DNA from: Niabella aurantiaca DSM 17617
GTDB taxonomy: Bacteria > Bacteroidota > Bacteroidia > Chitinophagales > Chitinophagaceae
Reading direction: 5' to 3'
Assembly: GCF_000374125.1 (NCBI RefSeq)
Contig: NZ_KB893625.1
Span: forward strand, 530,945-594,944
Length of the DNA stretch: 64,000 nucleotides
Shown here: in pieces, positions 49,041-60,261 of the stretch
Layout of the letters: the number at the start of each line of letters is the position of its first letter
Numbering within the stretch: the first letter of the stretch is position 1
The notes under the pieces: model-generated
What the model was told of the DNA's origin: nothing
The model's input: only the letters and a program-made list of their open reading frames with translations
Database searches by the model: none
Program-made: the position numbers and the translations under genes

Positions 49041-52000
49041 TTATTTTTTTGAGCTCCACGAAGTATGGGTGGCGATCTTAAACCGTGCGCCCTCTTCAAA
49101 GTCGTAACTGCGTTTTTGCACGCTCCCCGGCGCTGTCAGGCCCTTCTCTTTGCCGCCATTCCTTATCGTACTTACAAAAGTTGCCGGACCAAAAAATATC
49201 CGGGTGAATGTTCCTTCCTTTTTGACGTTCCGGATCCGGTAGCTTGCGTCGCGCGCTCCCGTTGTCTCGATAACGATCTGCTCGCCGATCAGACGTTTAT
49301 CAATGGGCTGTTTTGCCGCTGCCAGTATCCATCCCTCGCCGCCAAGCCCCCGGTACATCTTTACAACCTTGCCCCCGATTGCACCGGCCGATTTGAGGTT
49401 TATTTTTTTATAGCTGAGCGATGCGCCGTTTACGAGAACAGCCCTGGCAGCATGGTTGTTTTGCTCCCGGATATAACCGATGGCACCGTTCATTGCAATG
49501 CCATTGGGCAGCTGCATCTCTTTTTTTGTGGAAGGATTGTATAACAGGTAGTCGGTAGCGCCGTTCATTTTCTCTACCCGGATGGCGATGGTTTCATCGT
49601 TGCCGGTATCCAGGCGCTGAACAGATCTGATAAATGGTTGATCCCGGTAAGGTTCAAGAACGGAGACAAAGCTGCTGTTCAGATCTGTGCCCGCTCGGTG
49701 CATCAGCACATAGCTGAGCTTTTTGGGGTTGCCCGGCTTATTTTGAGGAGGATCGCCGTCGGCCAGCGCCACATCATCGGCGGGGCTCATTGCGTGCATG
49801 CGGATATGAATATTGTCCCTGTCGGTTATTCCGCGGTATCCCGGTGCCGCTTTCCAGTCTACCATAAAACGGGCCGGCGGGCGTGTATCTTTTTTTATAT
49901 GGTACAGGAAAGAGTAGCCGTAAGGAAATCCGGCGGCCTTGGTGCCTTTGGCGATCTGCTCACCGGCGTAAGTGCCTTTTTCCTGAACCTGGAGCCGGAG
50001 CCCGTCGGTGTTGACGGTGCCCGGGGGGCCGTGAAAACTGAAGACATGATCGTGGCCTCCCTTTACCCTGAAGATGTCGACAACATAGGCATTGCTGTCG
50101 ACAGTGCCATTGCCGGTACCACCTACCAGGAACATGGTACGGCTGTATTCCTGTATATCGGGATAAGCTGCTTTCCCATCCAGCTCAAATACGCCAAACC
50201 CTTTTAACTGTTTAAACAGCCGGGTATGTCCTCCCCAAACGGCTTTTTGCGGCCGTTTGTTCACAAATACCAGATTGTGGGAAACAGAACTCCTGGTCCA
50301 TTCTGTAACGTTGGGTATATTGGTTGCAAATTCCGGATAGCCATGATCCGGCGTTAGCCAGTGCCCGAATGCAAACAGGTCAAAATTCAGCATATCGCTG
50401 TGGGCATGATGCATGGTGCGCCCATAATTATTGGCTAAAGCGATACCAGATGCACCTGCGTCCGATTCAAGCAGGGCCAGCCCGAACCCGCTCATAAGAT
50501 ATCCGCCGATGGGGCGTGCGCCTGCCTGCTCTCCTAATTTTTGTATCTCCCGGTTTATTGATTCGGGATCTTCTGAAAAAATATCCAGTCCCAGTCCTTT
50601 TGCCGAATGACCATTTACGCGATAAGCGGCAACAGCGATGGCCGGATCCCGGGTGTACAGGTATCCCTGTGCCATAAATTTAGGATCGGCGCCCTGCAGG
50701 CTTACCAGCCCGGTTGATCCGGCATCTCCGATATTGGGAACGGCTTTGCCAAGAGCGGCCATGCGATAGGCGGCGGTATACGCATTTTTGAATTGCGGAA
50801 AATCGCGGAAAATATTATGATTCGTGTACCCGGGATAGGTCAGGAGCAGCGCCGCCAGTGCGGAAACGTGCCGGCCCCAGATAAATGCATAGCCCGGCGC
50901 GCCTTCATCGGAAGTGCCATCCCGGTCGAAGCGGTTAATCATCAGTTCGGGGATCGCCCCTCCATCGGGTGCAAACAGCCAATCCAGCCACCTGGTGGTG
51001 AACGGCTCGGTATTCAGCGCCAGGGCACACAATGCCACCGTATGCTGGTACATTCCCTGGTTGCCACGGATCCGCTGGTCCAGCACCGCCTGGAACGTGG
51101 TTTTCAGGATGCCCTCGTCAACATTGGCAACAAACAATTCCCGTGTGCCTTTGGGATTCGGCAGTTTGTATCGCTCGCCCTGGTGTTTAAGGAATGCATA
51201 CAACGACGGATCATTTTGAGTGCCGCTCAGGATCTTATCATAAGCATCGGCAAATCCCTGTACGATTCCGGTTTCCCAGATAGAGCCTTCTATTTTTCCA
51301 CGGCCCGTTGATCCGTCTGAGTGATACCATCCCCGGTCGGCATAGGGCTTCCAATCCATAGAGGGATAGAGGTCAGCGATCCGGTCTAACAAAATGGCCG
51401 CCTTATGGGCATAACGCTGATCGCCGGTGTACAGGAAAGCGTTGGCAAGCGCCGTTAGCCCGCCGTGGATGTACCGCCAGTATTTCCAGGTATAGTATCC
51501 GATGTATTTATAAGCCCGGCCGTTGTGAACGTAGCCAAAGCCGTTATCCACGCCATATTTGTGTAACGGGTCTTTGGGATCCGGATGATCGGTATTGAAC
51601 AGCAGGCTGGTATCGCCTTTGGCGGGATCAAAGAGCCCGTGCTCATCCAGGGCGCTTTGATAATATTTGCCGAAATCGTTGGTCGGGAAAACGGATCCGC
51701 AGGAGGGACAGGTCAGTTTCCAGGGTTTTTTTTCGAAATCGGGATTGTAGGGGTAATTGCCGTATTGGAGGATCTGATCCCCGCAAACAACACATCCTAC
51801 AAATTTGGGGCCTTTGGCAAATTTATCATATCCTACATCGATGGTCCTTGGCAGATCCTGGCCCGGCACCATTGCCCACAGGGCTTCATCGGTTTTGGCC
51901 AGCCAGGGCCGGGCATTTTTAACGGCTTCATTGAGCTGCTGCCGCGCCCATTCATATTTGTGGCAATTGTTCCGGAGGTTGCGAATGCGCGCTTCTGAAT

Positions 52001-52100
52001 ACTGTCCCCCGAAGATGCGCGTGGCATGCGCATGCTGTGCCGGGGAAGGGAGCAATAATGCCAGTAATGCCAATTTTAGCAGGAATAGTTTTTTTGCCAT
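49041..52100 (-). CDS. Heparinase II/III family protein with N-terminal Cys4 knuckles
   Basis: 1019 residues, exported (MAKKLFLLKLALLALLLPSPAQHAHA from ATG 52100; the frame continues to 52211 without features). An N-terminal helical toroid follows, containing two Cys pairs (CVVCGD and CPSCGS) likely to bind zinc, as seen in several uronate lyase-like proteins. The toroid includes YKYIGYYTWKYWRYIHGGLTALANAFLYTGD and NQGMYQHTVALCALAL. The beta-sandwich has NNYGRTMHHAHSDMLNFDLFAFGHWLTPDHGYP, the His-rich catalytic signature of heparinase II/III, alginate and ulvan-type lyases. A further C-terminal beta domain ends the protein. It is last in the minus-strand block, 222 bp after an amidohydrolase gene. 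The polymer cleaved is unknown. Confidence 0.85.
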   Translation of the reverse strand: MAKKLFLLKLALLALLLPSPAQHAHATRIFGGQYSEARIRNLRNNCHKYEWARQQLNEAVKNARPWLAKTDEALWAMVPGQDLPRTIDVGYDKFAKGPKFVGCVVCGDQILQYGNYPYNPDFEKKPWKLTCPSCGSVFPTNDFGKYYQSALDEHGLFDPAKGDTSLLFNTDHPDPKDPLHKYGVDNGFGYVHNGRAYKYIGYYTWKYWRYIHGGLTALANAFLYTGDQRYAHKAAILLDRIADLYPSMDWKPYADRGWYHSDGSTGRGKIEGSIWETGIVQGFADAYDKILSGTQNDPSLYAFLKHQGERYKLPNPKGTRELFVANVDEGILKTTFQAVLDQRIRGNQGMYQHTVALCALALNTEPFTTRWLDWLFAPDGGAIPELMINRFDRDGTSDEGAPGYAFIWGRHVSALAALLLTYPGYTNHNIFRDFPQFKNAYTAAYRMAALGKAVPNIGDAGSTGLVSLQGADPKFMAQGYLYTRDPAIAVAAYRVNGHSAKGLGLDIFSEDPESINREIQKLGEQAGARPIGGYLMSGFGLALLESDAGASGIALANNYGRTMHHAHSDMLNFDLFAFGHWLTPDHGYPEFATNIPNVTEWTRSSVSHNLVFVNKRPQKAVWGGHTRLFKQLKGFGVFELDGKAAYPDIQEYSRTMFLVGGTGNGTVDSNAYVVDIFRVKGGHDHVFSFHGPPGTVNTDGLRLQVQEKGTYAGEQIAKGTKAAGFPYGYSFLYHIKKDTRPPARFMVDWKAAPGYRGITDRDNIHIRMHAMSPADDVALADGDPPQNKPGNPKKLSYVLMHRAGTDLNSSFVSVLEPYRDQPFIRSVQRLDTGNDETIAIRVEKMNGATDYLLYNPSTKKEMQLPNGIAMNGAIGYIREQNNHAARAVLVNGASLSYKKINLKSAGAIGGKVVKMYRGLGGEGWILAAAKQPIDKRLIGEQIVIETTGARDASYRIRNVKKEGTFTRIFFGPATFVSTIRNGGKEKGLTAPGSVQKRSYDFEEGARFKIATHTSWSSKK

Positions 52101-52322
52101 TATGCTTTTTGTTTTGCAGATGAATGAATGGGATCCTCTCCGTAATCCTGAAATGATCCGAAAATAATGTCTTTTTATTTGCAGCTCATGGTTCGTGGGG
52201 ACAGGAACCACGGCGGCGCGGTGGCAAACCCCTTTTTTGTTTTGTCCCGGTCAATGTCCTCACCGACTGTATTGGAAATAAGCTGGTCGCTATTTATAAT
52301 AAAAACTATTTTGCACGATCCG

Positions 52323-53129
52323 TTATAACCCCAGGAACTTTTTTGCATTACCGGACCGTAACAGCTCTTTTGTAACTGTACTGGCTTCGCTTTCCCGCAA
52401 GGCCTCGATCCGCAACATCCCGGTGAGGTAATCCAGTATGGGTGCATGGGTTCCAAAGGCAAAACGCCCGGTACCCTGTGTTTTTAAAAGATTCCCCAGG
52501 TCGTTGATCGTTCTTCCGGAAGTGTCCATCAGTACGTTGGCCTTGCGAAATAAGGCGGCGTCTGCTTCCTCCAGCTGCATGCTGTTGGTTACATTCAGGA
52601 TCATGTATTTTGCATCAGGAACCGCCTTAATGATCGGGAAGATATTTTTTAAGGACCATTCCGGTTTGGGCGTATACGCTACATAGTCGATGTCCATCCA
52701 GGATCGCTGGCGGCTGTCGACCATTTTATAATTAAAAGCCACCGGCAGATCCATATCCCGCGCCTTTTTCACCAACTCAACAAGCGATGGGTCGTTTATT
52801 TCGTAATCGTGGTATTTCGGATATACGCGCACGCCCTTCATACCGAATTTTTTCACGCACTCCTCCAGGTCATGCTGCCAGCCGGCATAGGTGGGGTTGA
52901 TAACGGCAAACGGAAGGAATCGGCTGCTGTGCTGCCCCAGTGACCTCAGCTCATCATACAGCTCCCGGTTGGCGGATTGAGTATTTTTATAAAAGATGCC
53001 ATTCAGGTTGCTGATCACTGATAGGTGCACTCCAAATTTATTCATCCTCGCAAGGAGCGTTGCGCAGGTACCATACTGCAGCTGCATAAAAGGCCAGTGT
53101 CCTGTGTATGCGTTAATATCAATCAACAC
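52323..53129 (-). CDS. Amidohydrolase-superfamily protein lacking the canonical HxH (copy 1)
   Basis: 268 residues without a signal peptide, starting at GTG 53129. The start MLIDINAYTGHWPF holds Asn-Ala-Tyr where amidohydrolase-2 enzymes have HxH. MKGVRVYPKYHDYEI, LPVAFNYKMVDSR, KYMILNVTNS and FAFGTHAPILDYLTG cover the remaining barrel strands; the usual later His ligands are mostly absent. It is homologous along its whole length to the protein at 54138. It overlaps the 3' end of the Tat-exported amidohydrolase by 11 bp, so the two are translationally coupled. A non-catalytic partner or an enzyme with altered metal use are both possible. Confidence 0.8.
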   Translation of the reverse strand: MLIDINAYTGHWPFMQLQYGTCATLLARMNKFGVHLSVISNLNGIFYKNTQSANRELYDELRSLGQHSSRFLPFAVINPTYAGWQHDLEECVKKFGMKGVRVYPKYHDYEINDPSLVELVKKARDMDLPVAFNYKMVDSRQRSWMDIDYVAYTPKPEWSLKNIFPIIKAVPDAKYMILNVTNSMQLEEADAALFRKANVLMDTSGRTINDLGNLLKTQGTGRFAFGTHAPILDYLTGMLRIEALRESEASTVTKELLRSGNAKKFLGL

Positions 53130-54069
53130 CTCTACCTCCTTTTTTTAAAAGATTATTATAATTATCGAAAAATATTTTTTGCTTTTGCCGCTCGGTTAGG
53201 TTGGCTGCCAGTATCTTCCCCACGCCCTGGTAGTAAGAATTGTCCGACGCAAAAAACAGGCGGTCTTCGCCAAGATGTTCAACGGCGAAGTCGATCATGT
53301 TTTCGGCATTGTTGCTTCCGGAAGTGTCTACATAGATGTTGGGGCAATCCCGGAATAGCTTACATTCATATTCCCAGTCGCCGCCCATACCGATATGGGC
53401 ATATTGAAAGATGCCTTCGGGATAGCGCCGGGCGATCGCCACAAAGTCTTCGGGGATGGAAGTATTCGGCTGCTTATGGCCATTGTATTTCATCCGGTAT
53501 CCGCCTACGCCGAGCTGGCACTCTCCGTGCGAATGGATGATCATCTTCAGGTCGATCAGCTTTTCGATGACGGGGTAATACCTGGGATCGTTGATCTTTA
53601 CCTGGTAGTAGAGCTCTCCGGGGCCAACCATTCCCGCGTCAGTGCATCTTTTGATCTCATCTAAGGATTCCTGTTTGTAAACGGGATTCAGCACAAAGCC
53701 GCCGATCAGGTGATCGGGATATTTTTTGATGGCCTTTATGGTAAGATCATTGAACTTCCTGAATTGATCCGGCGTGCCGGGCATCACATCCAGGTATCGC
53801 GAAATGACCTGCCGGTCGATGCCCAATCGGCGCCCGTAATCCAGCTGTGTTTCCGGGCTGTCGTCCGTCCAGTATATATGTGCATGGGTATCGATCTTCC
53901 GGTATTGCATTACTTCCTTCATCAGGTCGTATGGCTGGGGGCCTGAGGCAGGCGTTGCTGCTGCTGCGGGTATGCCGGCCGCGGATTTTCCCGTTAAGCT
54001 GCCGCCTATCAGCATGCCCGCCATACCGGCCGCGCCCCGGGTAACAAATTTTCTTCGGTCAATATTCAT
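53119..54069 (-). CDS. Tat-exported amidohydrolase-2 family protein (copy 1)
   Basis: 316 residues. The Tat motif is in MNIDRRKFVTRGAAGMAGML, followed by a long Ala/Pro-rich stretch. The barrel carries a complete ligand set: IDTHAHIYW, IIHSHGE, FQYAHIGMGGDWEYE and FFASDNSYYQG. It is therefore probably a periplasmic metal-dependent hydrolase or decarboxylase-type enzyme; substrate unknown. Its stop overlaps the start of the signal-less partner by 11 bp. It is a paralogue of the protein at 54913 (shared GELYxQVKIxDPxYYPVIEK and DWEYxCK-type segments). Confidence 0.87.
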   Translation of the reverse strand: MNIDRRKFVTRGAAGMAGMLIGGSLTGKSAAGIPAAAATPASGPQPYDLMKEVMQYRKIDTHAHIYWTDDSPETQLDYGRRLGIDRQVISRYLDVMPGTPDQFRKFNDLTIKAIKKYPDHLIGGFVLNPVYKQESLDEIKRCTDAGMVGPGELYYQVKINDPRYYPVIEKLIDLKMIIHSHGECQLGVGGYRMKYNGHKQPNTSIPEDFVAIARRYPEGIFQYAHIGMGGDWEYECKLFRDCPNIYVDTSGSNNAENMIDFAVEHLGEDRLFFASDNSYYQGVGKILAANLTERQKQKIFFDNYNNLLKKGGRGVD

Positions 54070-54137
54070 GAGTGATGATGATTATTATTAAAAACCTGCG
54101 GTTGCTCCTGTTTTCTAAATAAGGAAGCATCCACCTG

Positions 54138-54923
54138 CTAAGATCCGAGCAATCCTTTTATATTTCCGGACCGCAACAGCTCTTTTGTGTGTTCGTCTGC
54201 CTCGTTTTTTCTCAGCGATTCAATGCGCAGCAGGCCGGAGAAATAATCCAGGATGGGGGAGTGGGTACCAAAACAGAATTTACCGGTTCCAAACTGTTTG
54301 AGCAGGTCGCTCCAGTTGGTCATACTTCTTCCTGATGAATCCATCAGCAGATCTGCCTTTCTGAAAAGGCTCATTTCTTCCCCGCTCAGCGCCATGCTGC
54401 CGGCTACATTCACGATCATATATTTTGCGTCCGGAACCGCTTTGACAATGGGTACTATATTTTTTAATGTCCACTCTTTATCAAGATCCATCCATGAGCT
54501 TGTCCGGCTGTCTACCATTCTCAGGCAAAAGGCAACGGGTAAGCCTTTATCGCGGCACATTTTCACCAGTTCAATACAGGGGAGAGCAGCGATGTCATAA
54601 CCGTGGTACTGGGGATAGAGCCGGACCCCCTTCATCCCCATTGTGGTGGCGCATGTTTCAAAGTCATCGCGCCAGCCGCCGTATATGGGATTGATGACCG
54701 CGAAGGGAATGAACCGGTCGCGGTAAGCCCTTTTGCTGCGGATGGCATCCCGCAGCTCTTCGTTGGCGTGCTGCGTGTTCTTATAGAAAATGCCGTTCAG
54801 GTTGCTGATCACTGATACGTCCGTACCAAACTCCTGCATCCTGCCCAGCAGGGCTTCGGGTGTGTTGTATTCCAACTTCAGGAACGGCCAGTGGCCAATA
54901 TATGCATTGCTGTCAATCAACAT
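54138..54923 (-). CDS. Amidohydrolase-superfamily protein lacking the canonical HxH (copy 2)
   Basis: 261 residues starting at ATG 54923. It begins MLIDSNAYIGHWPFLKLEY, again with Asn-Ala-Tyr instead of HxH, and shares SVISNLNGIFYKNTQ, FIPFAVINP, MKGVRLYPQYHGYDI, MVDSRTSSWMDLD and FGTHSPILDYFSGLLRIE with copy 1 at 52323. No export signal, although its partner is Tat-exported; it could stay cytoplasmic or be co-exported by hitch-hiking on the partner. It overlaps the partner's 3' end by 11 bp, exactly as in copy 1. A 68-bp gap separates it from the next pair. Confidence 0.8.
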   Translation of the reverse strand: MLIDSNAYIGHWPFLKLEYNTPEALLGRMQEFGTDVSVISNLNGIFYKNTQHANEELRDAIRSKRAYRDRFIPFAVINPIYGGWRDDFETCATTMGMKGVRLYPQYHGYDIAALPCIELVKMCRDKGLPVAFCLRMVDSRTSSWMDLDKEWTLKNIVPIVKAVPDAKYMIVNVAGSMALSGEEMSLFRKADLLMDSSGRSMTNWSDLLKQFGTGKFCFGTHSPILDYFSGLLRIESLRKNEADEHTKELLRSGNIKGLLGS

Positions 54924-55836
54924 GGATACCTGCTTTTTTTAACCGTTTTGCAATATTTTCAAAAAAGATCTTTCTCCGTTGTGCATCCGTAAGGTTGGCG
55001 GAAAAAAGCTGGCCCACGCCCTGGTAAAAGCTATAGTCACAGCCAAACACCAGCCGGTCTTCACCCACATATTGCAGTGCAAAATCGATCATGCCGGCTG
55101 CGTTGTTGCTCCCGGACACTTCGATGAACACATTGGGTACGTTTTTCAGCACTTTGCAGGCATACTCCCAGTCAATGCCGCCGCCGATATGGGCAAACTG
55201 GAATAATGCTTCGGGATATCTTTTGGCAATGCGTGCGAAGTCTTCCGGCAGGGAAATATTCCTGGGTTCGGTAGGATATAGCTTTACGCGGGAGTGCCCC
55301 ACCGGGGAGTGCATCATGATGTTCCAGTTGAGGTCGATGCATTTTTCAATGACCGGGTAATAGAGCGGGTCATCAATCTTTACCTGGTTGTAAAGCTCTC
55401 CCAGGCCCGTCATGCCGGCATCCCGGCAGCGGTCGATCTCTTCGAGGGATTCCTTCTGAAAAGCCGGGTTCAGCGCCACCGTACCGATAAACCTGCCCGG
55501 GTGCTCCTTCATACACTTTATGATGAAATTGTTCTTCGATCTGAAATCGTCGGGCCTGCCTTCGCTGAAGGGCCGGACAAAGTTGGAGATCATCAGCTTG
55601 TCAATACCGAGCCGGTCTGCAAAATCCAGGTTCACCTCGGTTTTGTACTGGTTTTCGTCTGCGTGGGCATGTGCATCGATCTTCCGGTATTTCAGCACTT
55701 CCTGCATAAAATCTCTTGTCCGTGCCCCGGTATCCGTGGGAGGGGCTTCCCGGCCGGTCGATCCCATCAGGAGGCTGCCCAGCATAAGACCTGCACCTGA
55801 GGTGACCGTATCCGTCATGAATTTTCTGCGATTCAT
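54913..55836 (-). CDS. Tat-exported amidohydrolase-2 family protein (copy 2)
   Basis: 307 residues with MNRRKFMTDTVTSGAGLMLGSLL as Tat signal. Metal-ligand positions are complete: IDAHAHADE, IMMHSPVGHS, FQFAHIGGGIDWEYACK and LVFGCDYSFYQG. It is homologous to the protein at 53119 throughout. It starts 10 bp after the ceramidase-like gene and overlaps the next gene by 11 bp, so all lie in one operon. The presence of two diverged copies suggests two related substrates rather than simple dosage (inference). Confidence 0.87.
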   Translation of the reverse strand: MNRRKFMTDTVTSGAGLMLGSLLMGSTGREAPPTDTGARTRDFMQEVLKYRKIDAHAHADENQYKTEVNLDFADRLGIDKLMISNFVRPFSEGRPDDFRSKNNFIIKCMKEHPGRFIGTVALNPAFQKESLEEIDRCRDAGMTGLGELYNQVKIDDPLYYPVIEKCIDLNWNIMMHSPVGHSRVKLYPTEPRNISLPEDFARIAKRYPEALFQFAHIGGGIDWEYACKVLKNVPNVFIEVSGSNNAAGMIDFALQYVGEDRLVFGCDYSFYQGVGQLFSANLTDAQRRKIFFENIAKRLKKAGIHVD

Positions 55837-55846
55837 TGTTGTGCGT

Positions 55847-57721
55847 TTATTTTACAGGCACCAGCCTTAACTCTCTCAGATCAAACATGGAGCCAGTATC
55901 TGCTGCGGCACCGGATTGCAATACCAGGGTTGTTGTGCCCGGCTGCAGCCGCAGGGCGCCTATCTTTTTTGTACGGTAGGTGTACCAGGATCCTGTTTTA
56001 TCTACTTTGCCTTTTATGCGTTTCTTGCCTGCCGTCAGTTCGAACGATTTGCCTGCAACGGCATCCGCAACGGACCACACCTGGTAAACATCGTATTTGC
56101 CGGCTTTTGCAATATCTACGTTCCATATGGCTTTGTCCTTTGCGTCAAACCAGCCAAAGGCTCTCCATTCGGGCATGTATTTGATGCGGCTGCCTTCGGC
56201 GGCGGCCAGCCAGGATGATAAGCGATAGGACCCGTCTGCCTCCTGCTGAACCAGCTCCGGCTGATTACTGCCGGGTCTTTTGTCTTTGAATGCGCCGGGC
56301 ATTAAGGCACCCACGGCGGTTATGATCATGTCTTCTACCCCGGGATCAAAAGGCGAGGGCTTGTTGTACCAGTACATGCTGCTTTCTGCTTCGTAACCAC
56401 CTTCGCCGATCACACGGCGGGAAGCAATATAGGAGGGTACATCATTGGCGTAAGCGTTTACCCAAAGCCGTTCTGCACCATACTCGTTTTTAAGCCTTAT
56501 GGAATAATCGACCACTACTTCGCCCGCCAGGTTCACCATTGCCATCTTATTGTCGAAGTTCCATACCTGCAGGGGATAATCAACAACGGGGGGAATGGCT
56601 TCGCCTCTTTCGAGTCTTTCAAGCGCAAGGCGTGCATAGTACCCTTTCACCGATTCATCTTTTGTCCATTCCACCAGCTCGCTTGCAGAAGGCACTTTGG
56701 AGAAGGGTAACCGGATCCATTTCATAGAGCCGGATGGTGGCGTAAGGAGCGGTTGCAGCTGCGCTGTTAACAGCTTGTCGATATTGTCGGCAATTTCTTT
56801 ACCATGCTGCTGAACGTTTTCGAGGGCTCCGCGTGGCGAAGGGTTGGCGTCTCCGGCACAGCCCAATGCGATCAGCGCCGTTGTGCCGGGGTGTCTTGCC
56901 TCGATCAGCCGGTGTGCCTCCGCGATCCAGTCGCCGTGAATTTTGTGCTCCTCACCCCCCAGGGTTGTTCCATGACAGGCATAGTTGAGGAAAACGGCTT
57001 TCAATCCGCCGTTGGGGTCTGTTATTTTCAGTATGGGCAGCGCCAGGTCTACAGGGCCGTCTTTTGTGCGGCGGTTGGCGGCAAACTGCGCCTGTCCCTG
57101 CCCCCAGGATACGAGAGCGGGCTGGCGGTTGTTTAAGGCTGCTACCGCCAGGTCTTTCAGCTTTTGGGTAAGCAGTTCGGTATACCGGGTGATCTCGATG
57201 AGCTGCTTTAAGGCTAAAAGCGAATCGCTGAAGTGCCCGTTCCTGTATTGGAGGATATTGATCAGGTTGCCGACCTCGGGACCTCCGTGCGTGTGCGATG
57301 CATAAATCGCAATTTGTGCAGGATCGATCCCTTTTTCTTTTGCAAGGAAATCGGTGACCTTTTTAGTGATGCGCCATGGAATGCCTACCAGGTCTACGGT
57401 AATAAGGACGGTAGGGTGCTGCTCATCGCTGCCCAATGCGAGCGCCTTGGCGGATATGGGCTGCAATACGCTGTCGGCATCAGTGCTGAGCCGTGCCGCA
57501 TACCCGGCCATCCGAATGGGAAATGGCGGTGTGATATCGGTACTGGCCACCCCCGCGGCGACGGTTGCCTGGTTGCCGGCTTTCTGGGAAAAGGAATATT
57601 TCCCCGGCAGGAAAACGGCCGCCATTGCGAGCGCGATGGACAAGGTAGCGGTACTGTTACGGATCTGAAAAATGATTGGCGCAAACTTCATACGCCGGTT
57701 GTTGAATAGATTGTGCATCAT
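55847..57721 (-). CDS. Neutral/alkaline ceramidase-like protein with C-terminal carbohydrate-binding-like domain
   Basis: 624 residues; start 57721 or ATG 57691 (MKFAPIIFQIRN...), then a hydrophobic export segment. The ceramidase N-terminal domain is recognisable from VAAGVASTDITPP, HPTVLITVDLVGIP, YASHTHGGPE (zinc His), LNYACHGTTLGG (zinc His) and GCAGDANPSPRG. In true neutral ceramidases the last motif reads GDxSPN with a catalytic Ser; here Asn stands in that place, so ceramide hydrolysis by the standard mechanism is unlikely. The C-terminal 110 residues (IWNVDIAKAGKYDVYQVWSV, LQPGTTTLVLQSG) look like a CBM6/35-type sandwich. Related proteins are frequent in glycan loci; the substrate is unknown. 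Confidence 0.83.
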   Translation of the reverse strand: MMHNLFNNRRMKFAPIIFQIRNSTATLSIALAMAAVFLPGKYSFSQKAGNQATVAAGVASTDITPPFPIRMAGYAARLSTDADSVLQPISAKALALGSDEQHPTVLITVDLVGIPWRITKKVTDFLAKEKGIDPAQIAIYASHTHGGPEVGNLINILQYRNGHFSDSLLALKQLIEITRYTELLTQKLKDLAVAALNNRQPALVSWGQGQAQFAANRRTKDGPVDLALPILKITDPNGGLKAVFLNYACHGTTLGGEEHKIHGDWIAEAHRLIEARHPGTTALIALGCAGDANPSPRGALENVQQHGKEIADNIDKLLTAQLQPLLTPPSGSMKWIRLPFSKVPSASELVEWTKDESVKGYYARLALERLERGEAIPPVVDYPLQVWNFDNKMAMVNLAGEVVVDYSIRLKNEYGAERLWVNAYANDVPSYIASRRVIGEGGYEAESSMYWYNKPSPFDPGVEDMIITAVGALMPGAFKDKRPGSNQPELVQQEADGSYRLSSWLAAAEGSRIKYMPEWRAFGWFDAKDKAIWNVDIAKAGKYDVYQVWSVADAVAGKSFELTAGKKRIKGKVDKTGSWYTYRTKKIGALRLQPGTTTLVLQSGAAADTGSMFDLRELRLVPVK

Positions 57722-57902: not shown

Positions 57903-58883
57903 TTATAATTTTAACCTGAATAATTTATTGGAATTGTCAAAAAATAGCTTTCGCTCAGCATTTTTATCCGGCACCAGTCTTTTGAGGGCCTGTATTGCCT
58001 GCCAGCCGGTGCAGGCTTTCCCGGTCCCTTCGGTATCCAGGCAATCGCTGCCGTATAAAAGCTTGTCCTGGTGGCGGTTTAAAAAGGATCTTGTAAAGTC
58101 CTCATCGCGTGTCAATGCAGCCAGTCCCGATCCGGCAGAGAGGTCGCCATAAACATTGTCGTACTTTGTCAGCAGCATATCCGTGATCCCTCCCGGGGTA
58201 ACCTTCCCTTTTGGGTAGAGTACGTTCTGATTTGTGTGGTCTTTGTCGATATTGGCCCACCATGTTTGTGCGTGGCCGATAAAGTTCACTTTTTTGTATT
58301 TGCGAAGCATTTTATGCAGCCGTTCCAATCCCCATGTGTACATTTTGTACTGGAAGTGCATCAACACAGGCACTTCGTAGTCCTGCGCCAGTTTGTAAAT
58401 GGCCTGCATCTCTTTTGAATCGCAATCCACATTGAATTTCAGCTCACCGATCACACAGGCTCCTAACTTTAAATATTTTTCTATTTCTTTTACGGCCCCC
58501 GGTGCATCGGGCACTTCATTGGCACCGAAGAAATAATGCTCCTTGTGCTGCTGGGCCAGCTGGTAGCAGGCTTCATTGGCTGTTGCCCTTACCTGGAGCC
58601 CGTTTGAAACACCATAATGAGTAGAACCCATACTTACGGGGTGGCCGGCGGGGAGCAGGATGGTATATGCGGCTCCCATTGTTTTCTGATGGGCCAGCAA
58701 TGCCGCATCGCTCCGGTCTCCATAATTGGTGTGCTGGTGAATGTCGATGATCTTTTCACCGGGCTCATTGCTGAAGATCTGTTGCAGTACCTCGGCCTTC
58801 GCGGAGGCCATGGTAAAAAGACCGGCGCCTATAACCGACGATCGCTTTATAAAATCCCTTCTGGTTGATTTTTCTTTTCCCAT
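57903..58883 (-). CDS. Tat-exported amidohydrolase family protein
   Basis: 326 residues from ATG 58883 (MGKEKSTRRDFIKRSSVIGAGLF, Tat motif TRRDFIKR); the frame reaches 58964 but the extension would bury the Tat signal. Metal ligands appear as IIDIHQHTNYGD, VLMHFQYKM, NFIGHAQTWW and LLYGSDCLDTEG. It differs from the paralogous pairs downstream and is a separate amidohydrolase-2 lineage. It lies 25 bp after the DegT-type gene. A 181-bp gap with no gene separates it from the ceramidase-like gene, perhaps with an internal promoter. Substrate unknown. Confidence 0.87.
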   Translation of the reverse strand: MGKEKSTRRDFIKRSSVIGAGLFTMASAKAEVLQQIFSNEPGEKIIDIHQHTNYGDRSDAALLAHQKTMGAAYTILLPAGHPVSMGSTHYGVSNGLQVRATANEACYQLAQQHKEHYFFGANEVPDAPGAVKEIEKYLKLGACVIGELKFNVDCDSKEMQAIYKLAQDYEVPVLMHFQYKMYTWGLERLHKMLRKYKKVNFIGHAQTWWANIDKDHTNQNVLYPKGKVTPGGITDMLLTKYDNVYGDLSAGSGLAALTRDEDFTRSFLNRHQDKLLYGSDCLDTEGTGKACTGWQAIQALKRLVPDKNAERKLFFDNSNKLFRLKL

Positions 58884-58908
58884 AAAAAAATTACAATGAA
58901 TGAACGGA

Positions 58909-60261
58909 TCAGGAAAGGTGGTCCCTGTTGGTATAGATCTTTTCCAATGCATGGACAATGTCATCCATGTCTTCTTTTGTACCCAGCAAAATGGCTCCGG
59001 CGCTGATCACAACAACCGTTTCCGTTACTCTGTCGCAGGCGGGTAATTGCAGGCTGTCCCTGAAAAGATTTAATTGTTGCTTCGTGTAGCTCTTTTTGTA
59101 GCTGCTCAGTTCTAAGATATTGGTGGCCCACAGATCGTGCTGCATGCCTTTTATATAGCCGCTTGCGGGGATGCCCTCTGCACTCAGCGCTTTAAGGAAT
59201 ACCTGGCGGTCAACGTTATTGAAGGATTTTTTGTCGTATGTAAAGGCATATAGATAGTAACCGGAGCTGTTGCTGCCCTCGTATTGGAGTTGGGGCGTCA
59301 GGCCGGGGATGTTCTTTATTTTGGCGCTCAGGTAATTTGCGTTCTCGTTGCGTTTTTCAAAACGCTCAACGGCCTTATCCAGCTGCGACAGGATAATGCT
59401 GCCTTCAAATTCATTCATACGCATCTTTTGGCCGATGGTGGTATTCTGGCCCTTGCGGTTGGTGCCGTGGTTTTGTATGGTATATACTTTATCCATCAAT
59501 GCGTCGTCGTTGCCGATGACCGCTCCGCCTTCGCCGGCGGCGATCTGTTTGCTGCCCTGGAAGCTGAAACATCCCAGCTGGCCGATGGTGCCTAATTGCC
59601 GGCCTTTATATTTGGCAAAATTTGCCTGGCAGGCATCTTCAATAACGGGTATCTTATGCTTGTTGGCTACGGCCATGATGGCGTCCATATTGCATGCGGA
59701 GCCCATGATATGCACCGGCATGATCGCTTTTGTGTTTGGAGTGATCTTTTGCGCGATCGCAGCCGCATCGATCTGGTAGCTCCGGTAATCCAGGTCTGCA
59801 AATATGGGCAAGGCCCTGGCGGCAAGTATTGCGGAGATGGTGCCAAAATCGGTGTAGGAGGAGGTAATGACCTCATCCCCGGGCTGTATGTTCAACGCAT
59901 CCACGCAAACGCCCAATGCCTGCGTTCCCGATCCGGTGCCTACGCAGTATTTTGCCCCGGTAAGCGCTGCATATTTTTTTTCAAAGGTGGCCACAGTACC
60001 ATGTACCGGGTTGCTGATCCTGCTCCAGGCACCGCTTTTTGTGGTGGCGGTGATATTGGCCAGCATATTGTCGTCAACGATCATTGCAGGCCAGTGTGGC
60101 CAGGGTTTTGTTCTGACGGGAGCCCCGCCGCTTATGGCCAACCCGGCGGTGCTGATTTTCGCATGCTGCCCGGCGAACGCAACGGGGGGGATGGAAAGTG
60201 CCGCTGAGCTTGCAGATAATACAGAAATAAATTTTCTGCGGGAGTATTGTTTTTTATTCAT
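58909..60261 (-). CDS. DegT/DnrJ/EryC1/StrS-type PLP-dependent enzyme with a Tat signal
   Basis: 450 residues. The N-terminus MNKKQYSRRKFISVLSASSAALSIPPVAFAG is a clear twin-arginine signal with a cleavage-like AFAG end. The fold-type-I PLP domain has GTGSGTQALGVCVDAL, DEVITSSYTDFGTISAI, PVHIMGSACNMDAIM, VIEDACQANFAKYKG and FSFQGSKQIAAGEGG, where the Lys in QGSK is the Schiff-base residue. Sugar aminotransferases of this family are normally cytoplasmic and use nucleotide sugars, so export with bound PLP is unusual. Gaps are 18 bp from the symporter gene and 25 bp to the next amidohydrolase gene. A periplasmic transamination, or a dehydratase-like step on a free sugar, can be imagined but is not shown. 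Confidence 0.9.
   Translation of the reverse strand: MNKKQYSRRKFISVLSASSAALSIPPVAFAGQHAKISTAGLAISGGAPVRTKPWPHWPAMIVDDNMLANITATTKSGAWSRISNPVHGTVATFEKKYAALTGAKYCVGTGSGTQALGVCVDALNIQPGDEVITSSYTDFGTISAILAARALPIFADLDYRSYQIDAAAIAQKITPNTKAIMPVHIMGSACNMDAIMAVANKHKIPVIEDACQANFAKYKGRQLGTIGQLGCFSFQGSKQIAAGEGGAVIGNDDALMDKVYTIQNHGTNRKGQNTTIGQKMRMNEFEGSIILSQLDKAVERFEKRNENANYLSAKIKNIPGLTPQLQYEGSNSSGYYLYAFTYDKKSFNNVDRQVFLKALSAEGIPASGYIKGMQHDLWATNILELSSYKKSYTKQQLNLFRDSLQLPACDRVTETVVVISAGAILLGTKEDMDDIVHALEKIYTNRDHLS

Follow-up and report, generated by a model that had tools for sequence, protein, structure and literature searches.

Amidohydrolases that overlap a metal-less homologue, and that probably work with it as one unit

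Why should a homologue of an amidohydrolase that has lost its metal ligands begin, twice over, inside the last codons of an intact amidohydrolase gene? The question is raised by a window of 64,000 nucleotides from Niabella aurantiaca DSM 17617 (family Chitinophagaceae, genome of 5.9 Mb), which carries two copies of a two-gene module. In each module the upstream gene, A, encodes an amidohydrolase of the PF04909 family with a signal-like N-terminus, and the downstream gene, B, encodes a diverged homologue that lacks a signal and overlaps A by 11 bp. A and B probably work as one unit, because the genes stay together across genomes and are fused in salt-loving archaea. The best explanation, to which we assign a probability of about 0.55, is that A and B are synthesized in a coupled fashion as a heteromer in which B is metal-less, and that this heteromer is exported folded on the one twin-arginine translocation (Tat) signal of A. 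Judged by gene and protein comparisons, a physical A–B complex is very likely, and export of both proteins together, given such a complex, is rather likely.

The gene series in the window is ceramidase-like–A2–B2–A1–B1–heparinase-like (Table 1). The four open reading frames (ORFs) and both overlaps called by the original prediction, which was made from the sequence alone, were confirmed, and all lie on the minus strand. The overlaps had been described as identical, a term that applies to their length only, because their sequences agree at 10 of 11 bases, the first base alone differing. Each of the four proteins passes the curated PF04909 (Amidohydro_2) threshold, 26.4 bits, with 88.1 bits for A2, 67.9 for A1, 38.8 for B1, and 31.2 for B2. 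Between the modules, A1 and A2 are 49% identical and B1 and B2 61% identical; the closest match to B2 in a named species is from Niabella pedocola (83% identical). A2 and B2 are barely similar by BLASTP, and the profiles of A and B are related (hhalign E 2.3e-13).

For comparison, 24 distinct A/B pairs were assembled from 17 genomes, which represent the family of the window, another family in its order, Persicitalea (Cytophagales), and one unplaced metagenome-assembled genome (L009). The start of B was placed at a conserved MLID, a predicted start that was also used for L036, L062, and L066, where the longest ORF of B begins further upstream. The set leaves out duplicates of the window genes (L001, L002, L012, L021) and repeat fetches under other locus identifiers, the haloarchaeal fusions, the distant B-like proteins of L032, L033, and L068, the protein of L048, which keeps HxH and is not a B, and L010, where a contig end cuts B and where A and the start of B overlap too.

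The HxH/H/H/D metal ligands are typical of the PF04909 family. They are intact in 23 of the 24 A proteins and the canonical set is found in none of the 24 B proteins, all five positions being replaced in every B. The claim that A has the complete ligand set and that a signal-less B has Asn-Ala-Tyr in place of HxH was thus borne out in both modules. In the profile alignment, H176, H216, and D267 of A stand opposite C133, N172, and H221 of B, with the Asp of A, third of these, in a GCDYS or ASDNS context; H56 and H58 of A fall outside that alignment, and were matched to N6 and Y8 of B by visual comparison of the ID.[HN].[HY] start that A and B have in common. The lone degenerate A of the set, at L067, is paired with a B that has K8, Q11, and C101 for Y8, H11, and R101.

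Loss of the ligands has not released B from constraint. The ratio of nonsynonymous to synonymous substitution (dN/dS) for B is 0.04-0.16 in seven of eight comparisons, similar to A, with the eighth comparison saturated and several dS values above 1, and B is under purifying selection. Ten residues (D4, N6, Y8, Y47, W84, D87, H107, Y109, D138, and R140) show no change in 14 aligned sequences of B, taken from both Bacteroidota and haloarchaea, and among the 24 pairs N6, H107, D138, and R140 are kept in all and Y8 in 22. An alternative metal site built from H11, H107, and H221 is unsupported across the family, as neither H11 nor H221 is conserved in haloarchaea; such a site could still exist within Bacteroidota only. 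The conserved residues bear on an alternative, namely that B is in complex with A as a second enzyme, metal-free or with an unusual site, which would make both the unit and the archaeal fusion bifunctional, carrying out two steps of one pathway. Invariance of D4, N6, Y8, H107, D138, and R140 across two domains of life, and constraint on B about as strong as on A, are what such an enzyme would display, but it would have to operate with every canonical ligand position replaced and without the two histidines of a possible new metal site in haloarchaea, and we regard it as unlikely. Of the proposal that B is inactive, the loss of metal ligands stands, whereas the conserved polar cluster means that B could be another kind of enzyme.

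The overlap itself is conserved in other genomes, being 11 bp at the MLID start of B in all 24 pairs, which is more than chance. The TGA stop codon of A sits within the Ile3 and Asp4 codons of B (ATT GAY). The Ile3 codon is ATT in every pair, whereas of 400 Ile codons elsewhere in B 144 are ATT, and this bias supports the suggestion that the overlap is selected for coupled synthesis; no formal probability is claimed for the count, because the 24 pairs are related sequences. Alternatively, the overlap may have been inherited by descent and be held only because B needs to start at MLID, without any selection for coupling, a possibility that is independent of whether A and B form a complex. The pairs do share common descent, and the Ile-Asp constraint on the protein favours the overlap, because ATT-GAY makes the out-of-frame TGA. 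However, ATC or ATA could serve for Ile, as they do at the remaining 256 of the 400 codons, and yet neither is found at Ile3. In addition, L090, which is without B, has a changed Ile3 codon and an A that is two codons longer, an argument weakened by L036, also without B, where the overlap codon is unchanged. On balance, descent alone seems an improbable account of the overlap.

Restart driven by a Shine-Dalgarno sequence was considered and rejected, since AAAAAGGAGG lies upstream of 10 of the 24 B starts and is partly a consequence of the Lys-Lys codons of A. Little use of Shine-Dalgarno motifs has been reported for Bacteroidetes in the part of the source available (PMC6728339), and unidirectional overlapping gene pairs are described, in the title of another paper, as often encoding subunits of heteromeric complexes (PMC10666635).

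In the window's family, eight of 244 genomes, the window's own among them, have strong matches to B, and the same eight have A at E up to 1e-30, with no genome having just one of the two; the family was searched with B in 244 genomes and with A in 244, the listed identifiers agree, and it is apparently one sample. A ninth family genome (G081) has a distant form only. B was found in 8 of 396 genomes of the order, again with the window's genome included, and in 3 of 395 genomes of the phylum (the window's genome, G398, and G407, the last with the distant form). In 14 B-bearing genomes, selected for B, 17 of 21 A genes scoring above 400 bits have a B partner. The trees of A and B have 15 of 21 splits in common, and shuffled labels give at most two. 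The same trees place modules 1 and 2 of the window in separate clades, each with other genera, so the duplication is old. Thus the proposed tandem duplication holds in that two modules stand side by side, an arrangement shared by L004, L005, and L036 (where B1 has been lost), and a recent origin is rejected. No relative was found in viral contigs scanned with the A4 profile.

A and B are also found fused. A tblastn search of plasmids with B2 matched six records, five of which are haloarchaeal. Eight haloarchaeal ORFs of 541 to 565 residues were read. Seven of them join A to B, in the order that the genes have in the window; the first half of each contains HxH, and the second half contains DANAY (six ORFs) or DANAF (one, Hrar1). 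The eighth, Hrar3 (L047), is an apparent B–A fusion. A further reverse fusion is found at L032:8191-9951, where a 586-residue protein with an RREF signal contains two PF04909 stretches; on inspection by eye the first resembles B, and the second has HMH.

Every A of the 24 pairs has RRxF within its first 40 residues, and TatC is present in the window's genome. An RR pair is found in three B proteins, inside the barrel. By the TIGR01409 Tat model, A2 scores 16.6 bits and A1 11.8 bits against a cut-off of 16.7, so that the proposed Tat export of A has the motif in its favour but not the curated models. Each Bacteroidota unit has one signal-like N-terminus, and its position varies: in L032, L033, and L073, three loci with more distant relatives, the arrangement is reversed, in that a B-like protein bears the RRxF signal and the one or two A-like proteins after it bear none. 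That B stays in the cytoplasm and acts on the product of exported A, with the overlap setting dosage only and no complex formed, is very improbable: B does begin at the first barrel strand in all 24 pairs, and none of ten partner N-termini matches an NCBIfam Tat model, but in the fusions the two halves share a compartment, one fusion starting with a signal-like N-terminus, and the three reversed loci carry the signal on the other partner.

As a separate observation, L073 also contains an A/B pair (L073:6947-8624) whose A is without HxH and whose B is without Y8, H11, and R101; this pair lies about 4 kb from the signal-bearing B-like gene that is followed by two signal-less A-like genes.

The idea of a paired, physical unit has therefore gained strong comparative support, from co-occurrence, the overlap, the fusions, and a single signal that may be on either partner. 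If it is correct, A would be a PF04909 enzyme that depends on metal and has a Tat-type signal at its N-terminus, and B a diverged triose-phosphate isomerase (TIM) barrel that, with its five ligands gone, would serve as a metal-less partner subunit, either completing or stabilizing A or giving the substrate site of A its shape. On reaching the end of A, the ribosome would restart on B within the overlap, and the subunits would therefore be made together; after folding and assembling in the cytoplasm, they would cross the membrane as a complex on the single Tat signal of A.

The claim that an active/inactive pair of this type would be new needs qualifying, as each of its two elements has a precedent. 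The 2-aminoisobutyric acid hydroxylase AibH1H2 of Rhodococcus wratislaviensis (PDB 6M2I, 8FUL, 8FUM, 8FUN, 8FUO), the nearest precedent, is, according to the available text, a solved heterotetramer of catalytic and noncatalytic amidohydrolase-superfamily proteins (PMC7782822), and illustrates that PF04909 proteins can pair in this way (PMC7782822, PMC12141560, PMC10401708, PMC10811679). As with A and B, the genes are described as neighbours and encode two TIM barrels, one catalytic and one noncatalytic (PMC7782822). In contrast to B, which is without any of the ligands, AibH1 retains a metal site, and the AibH2 ligands are given in those sources as DxH, His, Glu, and D..H.D (PMC7782822, PMC12141560) rather than the HxH/H/H/D of A; the available text makes no mention of a Tat signal or of a gene overlap. 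An ARO-type (AibH1H2-type dinuclear) monooxygenase was rejected, since its ligand signature is absent in A and there is no Rieske neighbour: a motif scan of 993 ORFs of at least 80 residues in 27 loci, with flanks of limited length, gave one match, an ORF on the strand opposite to A1 of L036, and no credible Rieske-motif ORF near the pairs.

HybOC and PaoABC belong to other enzyme families than A and B. In these E. coli systems, a signal-less partner is co-exported by Tat, the signal being on one subunit as in A/B, so far as the source is available (PMC4273604). In the A/B loci the signal differs in being on A or, elsewhere, on the B-like partner.

AlphaFold2 models of the monomers show strands and helices alternating in the manner of a TIM barrel, with predicted template modelling scores of 0.80 for B and 0.67 for A. 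A search with the A4 profile and a fold search found PF04909 relatives, and fold matches of both models are PF04909 structures (TM-scores of about 0.5-0.7); the 50 fold matches listed for the B model include chains of AibH1H2, and a phmmer search of PDB with B2 found nothing up to E 1. ACMSD and other PF04909 decarboxylases (gamma-resorcylate, 2,3-dihydroxybenzoate, and 5-carboxyvanillate) rank among the best matches to A and B in both sequence and fold. These decarboxylases act as homo-oligomers and are not known to have a metal-less partner or to be exported by Tat. The title of one entry in the ACMSD group (PDB 4IFK) describes an arginine of the neighbouring subunit as essential, and by analogy this might be a model for how B helps A.

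Several observations weigh against a coupled, co-exported heteromer with a metal-less B. Eight of ten signal-bearing N-termini touch a Tat model, all below cut-off, and two touch none. The haloarchaeal fusions have no evident export signal at their start (the RRxM string within the first 40 residues of Hrar1 is inside the barrel), and export is therefore not part of the core function. The invariant D4, N6, Y8, H107, D138, and R140 of B suggest a kept pocket, perhaps catalytic. At L064 (F8) and L034 (K101), B has changed while A is intact, and so the two sites do not change strictly together. Shared descent means that the 24 Ile3 codons are not 24 independent events, and each of the two trees has two splits, supported at 0.9 or more, that the other lacks. 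The structure models are of monomers only and are middling (mean predicted local distance difference test score, 75.7 for B and 65.8 for A), with the B model weakest at residues 1-18 and 137-146, which span the NAY motif and D138/R140. Lastly, of the 21 A genes in the B-bearing genomes, 4 stand without a B partner: those of L036 and L090 keep HxH and a remnant of the first codons of B, and those of L041 and L075 have lost HxH. The three genomes that carry these four genes also hold intact pairs.

At L090 (G028:C43:179108-180058), only the first-codon remnant of B is left, and the stop codon of A in the former overlap is gone, extending A by two codons. The HxH-less genes of L041 (4008-4835) and L075 (11842-12834) each adjoin a gene that resembles, by eye, the cupredoxin-like gene (Pfam) of L033.

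PF04909 proteins are now annotated singly, as hydrolases or decarboxylases. If A and B do form a unit, an A-type enzyme assayed alone could seem dead, and some 'amidohydrolase family proteins' would be half enzymes. The pairs would also provide a natural experiment on the route by which a metal enzyme becomes dependent on a metal-less partner and, because the signal sits on either subunit, on Tat export. Whether they represent an old class of obligate heteromers of amidohydrolases that spans domains of life, with a partner entirely without metal, overlapping pairs and fusions in both orders, and in Bacteroidota folded export on a single Tat signal that has moved between subunits in evolution, is in our estimate evenly balanced. 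Among the papers listed in literature searches, no title or opening of an abstract dealt with the A/B pair, which does not show that it is absent from print.

Table 1. Features of the A/B locus and its neighbours in the window
Feature	Position	Strand	Description
DegT/PF01041 aminotransferase-like protein	58909..60261	-	RRKF motif; homologue in 17/30 locus groups, including two haloarchaeal
Ceramidase-like protein (PF04734) with CBM6	55847..57721	-	Homologue in 12/30 locus groups (E up to 1e-8)
A2	54913..55836	-	PF04909 amidohydrolase with RRKF signal; H56, H58, H176, H216, D267 at ligand positions (protein numbering)
A2/B2 overlap, 11 bp	54913..54923	-	ATGTTGATTGA
B2	54138..54923	-	PF04909 homologue without signal; N6, Y8, C133, N172, H221 at ligand positions
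A1	53119..54069	-	PF04909 amidohydrolase with RRKF signal; HxH/H/H/D intact
A1/B1 overlap, 11 bp	53119..53129	-	GTGTTGATTGA
B1	52323..53129	-	Homologue without signal; GTG start; NAY replaces HxH
Heparinase II/III-like protein	49041..52211	-	Just downstream of B1; homologue in 6/30 locus groups

Among the neighbouring genes, the DegT/PF01041 homologue, a pyridoxal phosphate enzyme type, is possibly exported, to judge from its RRKF motif. The recurrence of DegT and PF04734 neighbours hints, speculatively, that sugars bearing amino or amide groups are broken down. L077 has another PF04734-type match, a weak one. Between the ceramidase-like and DegT genes of the window lies a further PF04909 protein (57903-58964) with a DIHQH motif, which matches the Tat model at 17.4 bits (cut-off 16.7) and has homologues in L005 and L078.

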